Positions 373 through 5,212 of a stretch of 64,000 nucleotides of DNA are shown piece by piece (position 1 is the first letter of the stretch; each line of letters starts with the position of its first letter). A model generated the notes under the pieces. The model saw only the letters and a list, made by a program, of their open reading frames with translations. It did no database searches and was not told the origin of the DNA. Position numbers and translations under genes: made by a program. The DNA comes from Cyclobacterium xiamenense (lineage in GTDB: Bacteria; Bacteroidota; Bacteroidia; Cytophagales; Cyclobacteriaceae): contig NZ_WIOK01000015.1 in the NCBI RefSeq assembly GCF_009467825.1, forward strand, positions 1 to 64,000. Reading direction: 5' to 3'.

Positions 373-708
373 CTAGAGCTGTTTTTTTCTTAACTTAATA
401 GCATTGGTGGTTACCTGATGCCGTTTTCGTCTCCGCACCAGCAGTCCCCCGCTTCTTAGCAGATCAAAGAAGGCATCCCTTCCCATTTTTATTTGATGCT
501 CGTACACAAACTCCTCAAGTTTACCGAACAGTTTTCTGCCTCCCAAACACTTGTGTTTCTTACGGATACCCCGTATTTCCAGAATCAGTATCTCTTCTTC
601 TATGGCTGTTTTTAAGATACGGCGTTTATTTTGGTAATATGCTTGTCTTGTCAGGCCAAACCATGAACATAAGTCGACTAAACTTATGCCCTTGAAGTTA
701 TACTTCAT
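373..708 (-). pseudogene. IS3-family transposase OrfB, truncated
   Basis: A 111-residue protein that begins like the helix-turn-helix/HTH_21 part of IS3-type OrfB (GLTRQAYYQNKRR..., MGRDAFFDLLRSGGLLVRRR). Full OrfB proteins are about 270-290 residues and carry the DDE rve integrase domain. Here the reading frame ends in IKLRKKQL shortly after the VTTN segment, so the whole catalytic domain is gone. Its ATG overlaps the orfA stop as ATGA (705-708), the usual orfA/orfB coupling. It cannot transpose by itself. Confidence 0.8.
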
Positions 709-1136
709 CTCTTCGATGGTTTGGTACTGTACTTTTTTCTTATAGAGATGTTAAACTCCTTTTCGGCAAAATCAACCATCGTGGAGAAGGCAACAGCCTT
801 CATCTCCGCTGTCTGAACTTGCTTTTCAAGGTCTTCAATGCGTTTCTTTAGCTTGAGAATTTCAAATTCCTCAGAACCGGTCCCATCTTCTTTTTTCCTG
901 TTGGGCATAGACTCTAAGTTAGCGGTTTTGATGAATTTATCATTAATGCCTAATTTCCGCATCCACATAGCAATCTTACCATTTTCGGTTTTATATCCGG
1001 TATACCTGTTATAAACAGCCTTTTTTGTTTCATTGCCGGACAAGTAGTCATGAATAATTAGCTTCTTTTCATGATCTGAAAAATACAGCCGATTTCCAAA
1101 CCATTGTCCTAAATTAGGTTTACTCTCCTTTTTCAT
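705..1136 (-). CDS. IS3-family transposase OrfA (helix-turn-helix)
   Basis: A 143-residue protein. The N-terminal half looks like an HTH_Tnp_1/transposase_8 domain (FSDHEKKLIIHDYLSGNETKKAVYNRYTG), and residues ~90-125 form a leucine-zipper-like coiled coil (EILKLKKRIEDLEKQVQTAEM), as is usual for IS3 OrfA. In intact elements OrfA binds DNA and is fused to OrfB by frameshifting. It appears intact, but its partner OrfB is truncated, so the element is presumably dead. It begins 40 bp inside the element end at 1176. Confidence 0.8.
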   Translation of the reverse strand: MKKESKPNLGQWFGNRLYFSDHEKKLIIHDYLSGNETKKAVYNRYTGYKTENGKIAMWMRKLGINDKFIKTANLESMPNRKKEDGTGSEEFEILKLKKRIEDLEKQVQTAEMKAVAFSTMVDFAEKEFNISIRKKYSTKPSKR

Positions 1137-1176
1137 TTACCTCATTTTTTGCGTAAACCTATTTCAGGACGAGTCA

Positions 1177-1277
1177 TTGGGGTTTTCCCAACCCCGAAGG
1201 TCTTTCCGCAGAACGTGCACGAAAAAAACTTCGAGGTCCCAAAGACCTCAAAGGTTAAATCGGATTGCGACCTTTGG
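1177..1277. repeat. Double-hairpin repeat unit, interrupted by the IS3 element
   Basis: A diverged copy of the unit tandemly repeated at 3503-3983. It starts at TTGGGG (1177), right at the IS end; the expected first bases (GACCT) are missing. It continues through both stems to CAAAGGTT (~1255). The opening GACCTTTGG of a further unit follows at 1269-1277, in the expected ~98-bp register, and then homology stops. This suggests a formerly longer array here. Confidence 0.75.
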
Positions 1278-1607: not shown

Positions 1608-3031
1608 TTTTTTACTGGTTTAACATATTTCTCATCATAATAGGTTTGAGTCATTAAGCCAACACTATAGGCAGGTTTCTTGAACAAACCTCCCGCTTCG
1701 GTTTCCCGTACTGTAAACCTGGCAAAATCGGCTGGCTGATAGTTTTCTATTTCAGCTTTTTCAATTGCCCTATTATCAATGGTGAATGAGATGTTCCTGG
1801 TTTTTATCCATCGTTCGAAAACATCCTTTTCAATTTCTTTTTTAGCAGGAGGCTTTTCAAAATGAATACTTGATTTCACTTCCGGATGGGCTTGCTGCAA
1901 GGCAAGCAATTTCTCAAATGCCAAATCATCAAAAAAAGGAAATGGCGTACTTTCTGCCTTTTCTTTTTCATTTAAGCCAAGGAAAGCACTTCTAAGTCTT
2001 GGCAGGTCCAGTTTATTCAAATCCACTTCAAAGGGATTTCCATCCTTGAACGCGCTGGCAAGGATTTGCTCATAATCGTTTGCTGTATGGTTTTGTTGGA
2101 TCCTTTCGAGGGAGGTTTGGCCGGAGGACAAAAAAACCATCAGGAATCCTGCCACAATAACGCCGATTGATTTGAACAGCATGGTCTTAAGAAAGGAGCT
2201 GGATTGGCCCATCATGATTAACCTTCTTTTGGTGGCGGAGAAATTGAACGGACTACTGATCGATATAGCAGCTTCATTCCCTGAAATTTTATGGATTAAA
2301 AGCCACTGGTAGGCAGCTTTGTTGCGGTATTTGGCAATTACAGCTGCATCGGCCAGAAATTCATGATTCAGCTGCATCGCTTTTTTGTAAAGCAAGAAAA
2401 CCGGGTTAAACCAAAAGACAACTTTTAGCACCTCCACAAACAATATGTCCCAACTGTGCCGCTGCCGAATATGGGTCAATTCATGAAATAAAATCTCATT
2501 TTCTATGGTCTTATTCTGGAAGGATACTTTATCGACAAATAGAAAATGTAAAAAGGTAAAAGGCAGGGTGTCTTTCCTTAGTAAAACATAAGTACAATCC
2601 TTTTCCCTGAGGGTCAAATTATCTCGGATCAGTCGCCTGATTTGTACCAACTGAATAATAAACCGGACTAAAAAAAAGAAAAGGCCAGACAAATAAATCC
2701 CCATCAATAGGGTATTCCAGGGGACAGCAATATCCGATTGTACAGGAAGGGGAGCTTCCACTTCAGCCTGTAGCCCTCCTTGCGTTGGGAATGTATTGTT
2801 ATCTGAACTTATTTCACTGCTGTATGCGGCAGGCACCTTTTCTGGAAATAAATCTTCCCCGATTTGAAAGCTTAAGGGTACCTGAAGAAAGGGCACCATC
2901 AGGGAAAAACAAAGCGCAAAAATCAGGAAAAAACGGTTGAAGCCAAACATGCTCTCTTTCACCAAAAAGAGTCGATAAAAAGCATAAAAGATAAGCAAAG
3001 CAATCGTGGCCTTTAGGATAAATGTGATCAT
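1604..3031 (-). CDS. M56-family membrane metallopeptidase (BlaR1/MecR1-like)
   Basis: A 475-residue integral membrane protein. Hydrophobic segments lie near residues 4-24, 33-50 and 105-130, and HELTH (183-187) provides the zinc-binding HExxH motif of M56 antirepressor peptidases. A further hydrophobic stretch (~283-305) precedes a long C-terminal region predicted to lie outside the cytoplasm. In the family, the peptidase senses a signal and inactivates the partner BlaI repressor. The ATG overlaps the BlaI stop by 4 bp (3028-3031), so the two are co-translated. There is no penicillin-binding SxxK sensor domain, so the signal is not necessarily a beta-lactam; Bacteroidota have many such orphan pairs. 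The C-terminus is odd: the -1 frame stays open beyond the stop. Confidence 0.85.
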   Translation of the reverse strand: MITFILKATIALLIFYAFYRLFLVKESMFGFNRFFLIFALCFSLMVPFLQVPLSFQIGEDLFPEKVPAAYSSEISSDNNTFPTQGGLQAEVEAPLPVQSDIAVPWNTLLMGIYLSGLFFFLVRFIIQLVQIRRLIRDNLTLREKDCTYVLLRKDTLPFTFLHFLFVDKVSFQNKTIENEILFHELTHIRQRHSWDILFVEVLKVVFWFNPVFLLYKKAMQLNHEFLADAAVIAKYRNKAAYQWLLIHKISGNEAAISISSPFNFSATKRRLIMMGQSSSFLKTMLFKSIGVIVAGFLMVFLSSGQTSLERIQQNHTANDYEQILASAFKDGNPFEVDLNKLDLPRLRSAFLGLNEKEKAESTPFPFFDDLAFEKLLALQQAHPEVKSSIHFEKPPAKKEIEKDVFERWIKTRNISFTIDNRAIEKAEIENYQPADFARFTVRETEAGGLFKKPAYSVGLMTQTYYDEKYVKPVKK

Positions 3032-3399
3032 GGCTTCTGGGATTTTATTTGTTCTTCAATAATTTTTTTCAGCTCCTCCAGTTCCTTTGTGTCCAATTCC
3101 GTCTCTTTGGTAAAAAAGGAAGCAAATTGGGCTGGAGAATCATTAAAGAATTTTTTGATCATGGTGTTAACTTTTCTGGAGAAATAGTCATTCTTGTCCA
3201 CTACGGGGAAGTAGGCCCGGGAGTTGCCGTATAACTCAAAACGGATGGCCCCTTTTTCCTGCAATCTTTTGAGCAGGGTAGCCACCGTTGTATTTGCCGG
3301 CTTGGGCTCCGGATAGGAGGCCAGTATGTCCTTCATAAAAGCCCTTCCTTTTTCCCAAATCAAATTCATAAGTTGCTCTTCAGCATTTGAAAGCTTCAT
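3028..3399 (-). CDS. BlaI/MecI/CopY-family transcriptional repressor
   Basis: A 123-residue winged-helix protein of normal length for the family. The N-terminal part (LSNAEEQLMNLIWEKG, then NTTVATLLKRLQEKGA) matches the BlaI DNA-binding domain. The C-terminal helices (FFNDSPAQFASFFTKETEL...) are the dimerisation region. It is first in an operon with the M56 peptidase. A palindromic TCTA...TAGA sequence overlaps the upstream -7 box, consistent with autorepression. Confidence 0.9.
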   Translation of the reverse strand: MKLSNAEEQLMNLIWEKGRAFMKDILASYPEPKPANTTVATLLKRLQEKGAIRFELYGNSRAYFPVVDKNDYFSRKVNTMIKKFFNDSPAQFASFFTKETELDTKELEELKKIIEEQIKSQKP

Positions 3400-3457: not shown

Positions 3458-3502
3458 GGTATTTGTAATTTATTATTATAGTTAAAATAAAAAACAGAAG
3501 CT

Positions 3503-3983
3503 GACCTTTGGGGTTTTTCCAACCCAGACGGTCTTTTAACGGAACGCGCACGTATAAAACCGTCGAGGTCTCAAAGACCTCAAAGGTTGAGAGCAAACCT
3601 AGACCTTTGGGGTTTTTCCAACCCCGAAGGTCTTTCCGCAGAACGTACACGAACAAAACCTTCGAGGTCCCAAAGACCTCAAAGGTTATAGCAGAATCCT
3701 GACCTTTGGGGTTTTCCAACCCCGAAGGTCTTTTCACGGAACGTACACGAACAAAACCTTCGAGGTCCCAAAGACCTCAAAGGTTATAGCAGAATCCTGA
3801 CCTTTGGGGTTTCCCCAACCCCGAAGGTCTTTCCGCAGAACGTACACGAAAAAAACCTTCGAGGTCTCAAAGACATCAAAGGTTATAGCAGAATCCTGAC
3901 CTTTGGGGTTTTTCCAACCCCGAAGCTCTCTTCCGGAACGTACACGAAAAAAACCGTCGAGGTCCCAAAGACCTCAACGGTTG
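3503..3983. repeat. Tandem array of five ~98-bp double-hairpin units
   Basis: Units start at GACCTTTGGGG at 3503, 3602, 3701, 3799 and 3898 (periods 99, 99, 98, 99). Each unit holds hairpin A (GACCTT-t-GGGGTT, TTTCC-type loop, AACCCC-g-AAGGTC), a ~25-nt linker with CGCAGAACGTACACGAA, hairpin B (AACCTT-c-GAGGTC, CCAAA loop, GACCTC-a-AAGGTT) and a short spacer (TATAGCAGAATCCT in the middle units). A further copy lies at 1177. The array sits between blaI (minus) and the 3' end of the regulator gene (minus), so it would be transcribed as the tail of the regulator mRNA. Short ORFs inside it are artefacts of the repeat. Confidence 0.95.
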
Positions 3984-5212
3984 AGGATGTCGCCCCCCGG
4001 ATCCACCCAAAAAGTGGCAGGTTCATCCAGCGGAAATACATGGATCAGCTTGGTGCTGAGCTCGGTGCGGTCAATACCTGAAACTTCAAAAAGTACTTCA
4101 AAATAGGGTGGTACTTCCCCCAATTGCCCGGCGATCTCACTTTTGATAGCTTGCCGCAGAGAGGTATCCGTGAAGTTTTTAAGGCTCTGCGTGGCTCCGG
4201 TATCCCAAAGACCACAGAAAAGGTAAACCGTGTTTTGGTTTGGGCCAGGAAATTTGGCCATAAAGCCGTAATCGGTATGGTAGCCATCCGGATCGCCCGT
4301 TGGAGAAAAAACATGCCTTTCAGCAATACCCTCCCTTTCCAAAATCAATGCTTCTCCTGCCTCGTCATAGGCAAAATGGGAGTAATTGAAATAATCCCTG
4401 AACAAACCCAATGTTTTGATCATCCCCACTACCACAAAATTCTGATCCTGCAATTCCTTGGGATTGAAGCGGGAAATGGTTCGAATTGAAAAAAAATGTC
4501 CCGAGGCATCAAACATGCGGGTAAGGTCTTTGATCCATTGCAGGCTGCCCCGAATAAGCAAGCCATAGGAAATAGGTGCGGTAAAAACTCCCTCCCGCTT
4601 GTCTGAATTCCGGAAAGACTCAAACTCGGAAAAGCTGTTGATATGTGGATCCCGAATGGTTCTGTCCATTCCGTTTAGGCTGTCCTGTTCCAGATAAATA
4701 AACAAGTCTCCCAGAAAAACCGATGTGGGATAACCATTCGTAACCAGATCTGACCATATGGTTGCATGAAGTAAATTTCGGCTTTGTCGTCCTATCTGAA
4801 ACCAGGCCAGCAGCAGCAATAAACATGATATCCCTAAAATCAACGGTATCCGGATCCATTTTTTTTCTGCCCATTGAAAAATAGCCAATTGGCGCTTCCT
4901 TTTCTCAAAAACAATTCCGTAGCTACCTTTGGGCATGCTCATCCGGAAAGGGTCGTTGCTTCCTTCATTGGCGTAATAATTCCCTAACTTCTCCCGCAGT
5001 TTATAGGCATAGACCCGAATCAAGGTGCTCTCAGATGGATCAAAATCGGGCTTGCCAAAAACCTCCGCTGCAATAACGGTCTCTTTGGGTGCATCCTCCT
5101 CCAAGGAGCAACGTACCAGAAACCGCAACAAATTGGCATAGGTAGTGGATCGCCCAAAGCCCTTGCTCTTGATGATCTTTTCCGTAAGCTCCAGAAAAAC
5201 AGCCTTCTCCAT
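3974..5212 (-). CDS. Membrane-anchored DNA-binding regulator (ToxR-like layout)
   Basis: A 412-residue protein. Residues ~1-105 resemble the winged-helix-type domain found at the N-terminus of some TolB-like/adenylate-cyclase-like regulators (KETVIAAEVFGK, DFDPSESTLIRVYAYKLREKL, NDPFRMSMPKGSYGIVF). One transmembrane helix follows at ~121-140 (RIPLILGISCLLLLLAWFQI). The remaining ~265 residues, predicted to be periplasmic, match no domain I recognise. The layout suggests a one-component regulator that senses outside and binds DNA inside. It is divergent from the cytochrome/DUF1501 genes across a 144-bp gap, so it probably controls them (inference). The last codons, Asn-Arg-stop, lie inside the final unit of the repeat array, so the natural C-terminus may have been altered. 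Confidence 0.7.
   Translation of the reverse strand: MEKAVFLELTEKIIKSKGFGRSTTYANLLRFLVRCSLEEDAPKETVIAAEVFGKPDFDPSESTLIRVYAYKLREKLGNYYANEGSNDPFRMSMPKGSYGIVFEKRKRQLAIFQWAEKKWIRIPLILGISCLLLLLAWFQIGRQSRNLLHATIWSDLVTNGYPTSVFLGDLFIYLEQDSLNGMDRTIRDPHINSFSEFESFRNSDKREGVFTAPISYGLLIRGSLQWIKDLTRMFDASGHFFSIRTISRFNPKELQDQNFVVVGMIKTLGLFRDYFNYSHFAYDEAGEALILEREGIAERHVFSPTGDPDGYHTDYGFMAKFPGPNQNTVYLFCGLWDTGATQSLKNFTDTSLRQAIKSEIAGQLGEVPPYFEVLFEVSGIDRTELSTKLIHVFPLDEPATFWVDPGGDILNR

Follow-up and report, generated by a model that had tools for sequence, protein, structure and literature searches.

The tandem double hairpins at 3503–3982 of the window, the 64,000-nucleotide stretch of DNA that was analyzed, are very probably REPINs of a Bacteroidota-type REP family that lacks the GTRG guide and is served by its own REP-associated tyrosine transposase (RAYT), and not a new RNA. 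The REP/BIME-like logic proposed for these repeats in the original prediction was right, and it can be made exact as an inverted REP doublet with a cognate RAYT.

Two inverted hairpins in each unit

Tandem Repeats Finder called a repeat at 3501–3982 with a period of 99, 4.9 copies and 89% matches, and we resolved the array at 3503–3982 into five units of 85–86 nt with 13-nt linkers between them, giving a unit-to-unit spacing of 98–99. The call and the folding of units 2 and 5 agree with the five tandem double-hairpin units described in the original prediction, whose quoted letters for units 1 and 5 are correct. A further copy that it had placed at 1177 is present, but without its first five bases. 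The array and its surroundings comprise the following features.

1177–1257, plus strand: sixth copy, its first five bases missing at the end of an IS3-type remnant
3028–3399, minus strand: BlaI/CopY-type repressor gene flanking the array (Pfam Penicillinase_R, 100.9 bits)
3503–3588, plus strand: REPIN unit 1 (hairpin A 3503–3533, spacer, hairpin B 3558–3588)
3589–3601, plus strand: linker between units 1 and 2 (other 13-nt linkers at 3688–3700, 3786–3798 and 3885–3897)
3602–3687, plus strand: REPIN unit 2, the reference unit (hairpin A 3602–3632, spacer 3633–3656, hairpin B 3657–3687)
3701–3785, plus strand: REPIN unit 3
3799–3884, plus strand: REPIN unit 4
3898–3982, plus strand: REPIN unit 5 (pair 5 of the B stem is G-C)
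3974–5212, minus strand: gene of 412 aa with no match in Pfam; its final codons and stop lie inside the outer arm of unit 5

Hairpin A of unit 2 reads GACCTTTGGGGTT, loop, AACCCCGAAGGTC and is followed by a 24-nt spacer and by hairpin B, which reads AACCTTCGAGGTC, loop, GACCTCAAAGGTT. Taken as its reverse complement, hairpin B becomes AACCTTTGAGGTC-loop-GACCTCGAAGGTT, which is element A with few changes. Each unit is two inverted copies of one 31-nt hairpin (REP), hairpin B repeating hairpin A in reverse complement, and the unit as a whole is therefore an inverted pair of REPs, known as a REPIN or BIME. The REP has a 13-bp stem, a small loop and a conserved T-G mismatch at pair 7 (3608/3626 in hairpin A of unit 2), and the two REPs are held apart in this array by a spacer of 23–24 nt with the core aaCGTnCACG. 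Unit 1 carries a G at pair 5 in the left arm of hairpin B, whose right arm is of the T-A type. Inspection by eye led us to set aside a CRISPR or an integron attC reading of the array.

The IS3-type remnant (window 373–1177) stops at the sixth copy, where GGACGAGTCA meets TTGGGG, and the same IS3-type end interrupts a unit on contig C18 (L038 1242–1264), where GACCTTTG meets TGACTCGTCC. Judged by their sequences, both ends fit one IS inserted into hairpin A with a 3-bp TTG duplication, and a single insertion could perhaps link the contig of the sixth copy to contig C18. We also observed a unit variant, recurring in several species, in which CCCCGTATTC replaces the right arm of hairpin A (L040 1322–1404 and similar units).

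Pairing, mismatch and strand

Folded as single-stranded DNA, units 2 and 5 form both hairpins and unit 1 takes a central fold. On either strand of these three units the z-scores range from −3.5 to −5.5, and 0 of 200 shuffles fold as well in each of the six cases.

We analyzed covariation in units gathered from at least 172 places, of which 126 are full length and 125, drawn from nine genomes, are distinct; the 46 partial places were excluded, and one row that joins two single hairpins of the same orientation (L042) was retained. Pair 7 was omitted from the counts, and the shuffles ignore relatedness, which a set of one unit per locus (59 units) only partly removes. Hairpin A has 1378 of 1464 cells in Watson-Crick pairing against a shuffle mean of 1354.0, and hairpin B 1391 of 1487 against 1305.2, values that 0 of 1000 shuffles reach in either case. 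Cells in which both bases have changed number 12 in A against a shuffle mean of 0.9 (6 against 0.5 with one unit per locus) and 56 in B against 15.7 (30 against 10.8). Pair 5 of B, for example, is T-A in 63 units, G-C in 30 and C-G in 6, and pair 9 is A-T in 94 units and G-C in 15.

The helix between the right arm of A and the left arm of B gave a different result. Its 996 paired cells out of 1478 stand against a shuffle mean of 990.1 and are reached by 63 of 1000 shuffles; with one unit per locus the count is 475 against a mean of 472.9 (168 of 1000 shuffles). The outer helix reaches 1052 of 1474 cells (mean 1044.2), at 7 of 1000 shuffles for all units, 11 of 1000 for the 88 units with distinct arms and 208 of 1000 for one unit per locus, where A and B remain at 0. 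Each REP carries the pairing signal; the third helix shows none, and the outer arms a weak one at most. Selection for structure, as originally proposed from the covarying arms, is accordingly borne out for hairpins A and B taken separately and not for the third, central helix.

The original prediction had also raised the possibility of alternative folds, in which a selected central helix would compete with A and B as a switch. Unit 1 does fold with the central helix, its A right arm matching its B left arm, yet central pairing is not above shuffles over the 125 units and the unit-1 combination occurs in only one of them. A G in the left arm of B, as in unit 1, is frequent in the family (33 of 125 units), which leaves a single new base to be explained in hairpin A. 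Judging from these counts, this change in its right arm may be the sole new one, and templated quasi-palindrome repair could supply it in one step. We therefore regard a switch of this kind as very unlikely. An arm-internal dyad, with ACCT...AGGT folding on itself, was considered and rejected: in the left arm of B, positions 5 and 9 read T/A in 40 units and G/A in 32, and their pairing is not kept.

Within the REPs themselves, the T-G mismatch at pair 7 is conserved, for A in 117 of 123 hairpins and for B, read as the reverse complement, in 117 of 125; exceptions include T-A in five of each and A-T in one further B hairpin. Among the other single mismatches of hairpin A, G-T is found 22 times and A-C 15 times. 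On the plus strand of hairpin B the figures are 43 for A-C and 16 for G-T, and the reverse holds on the strand that carries T-G, although pair 5 by itself contributes 13 of the 43. This lean toward wobble pairs on one strand weakly suggests that a folded DNA strand is what is read. The partner enzyme described below and, weakly, this strand asymmetry point to single-stranded DNA over RNA as the recognized form. According to the available text of PMC8266576, the E. coli TnpA-REP reads the REP and not its complement, and needs a bulge in the stem.

The canonical GT[AG]G foot (GTAG or GTGG) is absent at the 5' foot in the flanks of the 125 units, where the only clear enrichment is T at −1 (86 of 125 and 82 of 125). 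One plausible but tentative reading is that the Cyclobacteriaceae-type RAYT lineage reads the folded hairpin without a GTRG guide, that the near-invariant T-G wobble at pair 7 is part of what it reads and also marks the strand, and that the hairpin has been kept through about 50% protein divergence.

The RAYT lineage and its hairpins across genomes

The genome that holds the window (5.78 Mb, 97 contigs) yielded 31 blast matches on nine contigs. The family hairpin pattern, ACCTTYGRGGTN{3,12}ACCYCRAAGGT, matches it 23 times, and the reversed pattern, which served as the control, has 0 matches in all 99 genomes searched, indicating that the copies are not due to chance. Twenty of the 99 genomes contain the pattern, the one with the window included, and a search of this marine genus at E 1e-6 found units in at least 9 of 12 genomes.

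A RAYT gene sits between repeat copies on contig C53 (G000:C53:23019-23573), preceded by two complete units and followed by a B hairpin and a clipped A. Its product scores 28.3 bits against Pfam Y1_Tnp (cut-off 23) and 70.9 bits (E 9.8e-20) against the NCBIfam model for REP-associated tyrosine transposases, NF047646, which is below the equivalog cut-off of 80; all 24 aligned relatives match the same model, with E-values of 0.001 or better. The protein carries the HuH motif NHFH and the tyrosine motif YIHLNP, and N54, H55, Y118, N122 and P123 are invariant in the 24-row alignment, H57 nearly so. From its AlphaFold model (pLDDT 92.4) the protein is predicted to have the TnpA-REP fold: the best PDB match is 4er8 (E 5.2e-9), a REP-associated tyrosine transposase in complex with a REP hairpin, which outranks every listed IS200/IS605 transposase. 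By sequence, 4er8 is also the sole phmmer match at E 0.001.

RAYT relatives at E 1e-8 occur in 40 of the 99 genomes of the first sample. The eight best, with at least 60% identity at E 1e-64 or better, come from G000 (the genome with the window), G001 (Cyclobacterium jeungdonense), G002, G003 (C. roseum), G005, G042, G050 and G054. All eight first-sample RAYTs at E 1e-55 or better have the family hairpin in their own locus, taken as the gene plus up to 1.5 kb on each side; there are 1 to 10 hairpins per locus against 0.003–0.022 expected by genome share, tandem copies not being independent. The pattern is present in 8 of 8 genomes with such a RAYT and in 12 of the 91 others (Fisher 7e-7, a value that ignores kinship).

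The rule was later tested on RAYTs that had not been used to make it. A search of 196 family genomes, cut at E 1e-55, yielded six new RAYTs of 50–64% identity, and all six have the strict motif alongside (7, 3, 5, 1, 2 and 1 copies) in genomes that carry 6–48 hairpin copies each. Taken together, every one of the 14 RAYTs that reach E 1e-55 has the hairpins next to it. The relative that ranks just below them in the first sample (G046, 45% identity, E 4e-50) has a different hairpin, and more distant RAYTs have other palindromes, often with 15-bp stems and 3-nt loops.

When hairpins of any sequence are counted, 82 lie in 101.8 kb near 30 RAYT-family loci, 28 of which are positive, compared with 9 in 103.2 kb around 32 other Y1_Tnp genes, 9 of which are positive; the 64-kb window contains 2. 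These control genes were taken as IS200-type, and the 27 that were scanned, the five from the genome with the window being left out, showed no RAYT-like ORF in their loci (phmmer 1e-3). Seven of the first eight RAYTs, the ACCTTTG-type, form one clade with support of 100/100 in a tree that leaves out the fused eighth RAYT (L053), three weak matches and the six later RAYTs. The remaining RAYT rows carry other hairpins or none, and 5 of the 30 rows are labelled as lacking such a hairpin.

The 12 hairpin-bearing genomes without a RAYT of at least 60% identity, five of them from the same genus, require RAYT loss or assembly gaps to be assumed. REPs lacking their transposase have been mentioned in print (available text of PMC6006769), and REPs without a RAYT of the lineage weaken a strict need for the enzyme. 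Two genomes of one genus (g2) bear on this: G012 has 56 hairpin copies and no lineage RAYT was found in it, and G133 has 48 copies and a lineage RAYT whose frame is broken by a stop codon. The REPs of both seem to outlive their transposase.

We also weighed the reading of the units as RNA elements, either riboregulators or double hairpins that stabilize or terminate mRNA, with a secondary link to the transposase. Both hairpins of unit 2 fold strongly as RNA, four of the five B hairpins were called terminator-like on the minus strand (that of unit 1 only as a shorter stem), and runs of T or A are conserved on the spacer side. The nine sites examined in the genome with the window, where at least two more exist, all fall in gaps between the main called genes, several directly after gene ends, and at two of them a small ORF of 94 or 102 aa overlaps the repeat. 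However, tandem and convergent gaps are both occupied, the terminator-like calls in the region are little above shuffles (5 against a mean of 3.2, sd 1.7), and the 64-kb window has no Rfam match at gathering score. The clustering of the copies at one transposase lineage and the conserved mismatch at pair 7 also speak against an RNA role, which we judge improbable. The REPIN reading accounts for a class of double hairpins that lie at the ends of genes in the genomes compared and might otherwise be taken for riboswitches or novel RNAs.

History of the site and relation to known systems

The orthologous site lies between the BlaI-type gene and the 412-aa gene. Among the matches listed, five species were compared: the site has a single unit in G003, G004 and G011 (whose flank is 98% identical), three units plus a partial one in G005, and five units in the window. 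The array is also a length-variable tandem repeat. Its right edge, CAACGGTT, is common to all five species' sites. The 412-aa gene takes its final residues and its stop codon from this edge (3974–3982), and the four other species are alike in this, with the frame read by eye. At the right edge, the genome with the window, G011 and G003 have G-C as pair 5 of B; G004 and the partial hairpin of G005 have A-C. Hairpin B of unit 5 does stay paired through its changes on both sides, as the original prediction had pointed out, but the G-C pair is probably the older state of the site, because the right-arm base is common to the site in four other species.

Such a history bears on whether the array is a minisatellite, an inert palindrome multiplied by passive tandem duplication with no enzyme involved. 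The original prediction had argued against passive duplication; duplication in fact explains much of the array, and what stands of that argument is that the changes are paired within hairpins. The unit numbers of 1, 1, 1, 3 and 5 at this one site and the 95–99% identity of unit 2 to five units on contig C18 are as a minisatellite would have them. Yet copies lie at many sites in many species and are concentrated at RAYT genes, and the absence of any enzyme is hard to credit on this evidence.

At another, putatively orthologous spacer, the REPIN is present in G003 and G004 and missing in G006, G001, G000, G010 and G002. A search of the genus with the C8 and C51 sites and the joined flanks of 7 loci gave no exact empty site; most of the sites looked at were shared and occupied, and this one polymorphic spacer was too diverged to place the junction.

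By analogy with the enzymes of E. coli and Stenotrophomonas, we infer that these REPINs are mobile. The RAYT would bind a REP that folds in one exposed DNA strand, as during replication, cleave at the REP foot through its tyrosine, and move or copy the doublet. Tandem arrays like that at 3503–3982 would then grow and shrink by recombination between units, and effects on neighboring genes, at their 3' ends or on termination, would be secondary.

We found no description of this repeat in Cyclobacterium in the literature searched. Its organization resembles that of the REPINs or BIMEs of Pseudomonas fluorescens SBW25 and E. coli (RAYT groups 3 and 2), in which inverted REPs with a spacer occupy intergenic positions singly or in clusters and copies flank the RAYT; E. 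coli REPs also have a conserved stem mismatch or bulge (available text of PMC8266576). In contrast to those systems, the REP here is 31 nt long with T-G at pair 7 and no GTAG or GTGG foot, the spacer is 23–24 nt with its aaCGTnCACG core, and the units form regular tandem arrays. Compensatory changes extend across the whole doublet in SBW25, as the available text of PMC3116915 describes, whereas here they are seen inside the individual REPs, with no clear sign of them over the doublet. The lack of a canonical GTRG and of clear doublet-wide covariation leads us to file the family as a variant of the REPIN–RAYT system.

Compared by published description, the nearest described group would be TnpA-Y1 subclass 2.6 (Bertels group 5), which the available text of PMC6006769 assigns to Bacteroidetes and credits with "atypical secondary structures"; by their sequences, the motifs here fall between those of subclasses 2.6 and 2.1. 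As far as that text goes, the lineage shares with subclass 2.6 its phylum, its protein length (about 185 aa here, median 179 there), SS in the tail, and flanking structures without GTRG that have copies elsewhere. The motifs NH[FY]H and Y[IL]H[LQ]NP found here are close to NH[LIV]H and YIH[QN]NP of subclass 2.6, but the HuH residue is F/Y and the tyrosine motif often has L, and the structures are strong here and called weaker there. The FQ motif is shared with subclass 2.1, for which the available text of PMC6006769 reports no REPs found.

Subclass 2.4 RAYTs have REPs inside the gene, and other RAYTs of the same order here have in-frame palindromes of about 33 nt. Such palindromes, with stems of about 15 bp, were seen in RAYTs of other lineages (L057, L060, L062, L063, L064, L066, L067, L069, L071, L073 and L074), some of them encoding peptides such as LTGFQNLSGL. 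Unlike subclass 2.4, the ACCTTTG-type RAYTs are without the insert that carries these palindromes and without in-gene hairpins of that kind, the sole exception in the lineage being one call of another sequence in L048.

RAYT–REP pairs belong to a small set of transposase systems that hosts seem to have retained. The rules by which a RAYT recognizes its REP come, in the available text of PMC8266576, from experiments on two proteobacterial groups that use the GTRG guide. A GTRG-less pair from Bacteroidota, with a conserved mismatch and a stem that covaries within each REP, lends itself to comparative testing of which features the enzyme recognizes.
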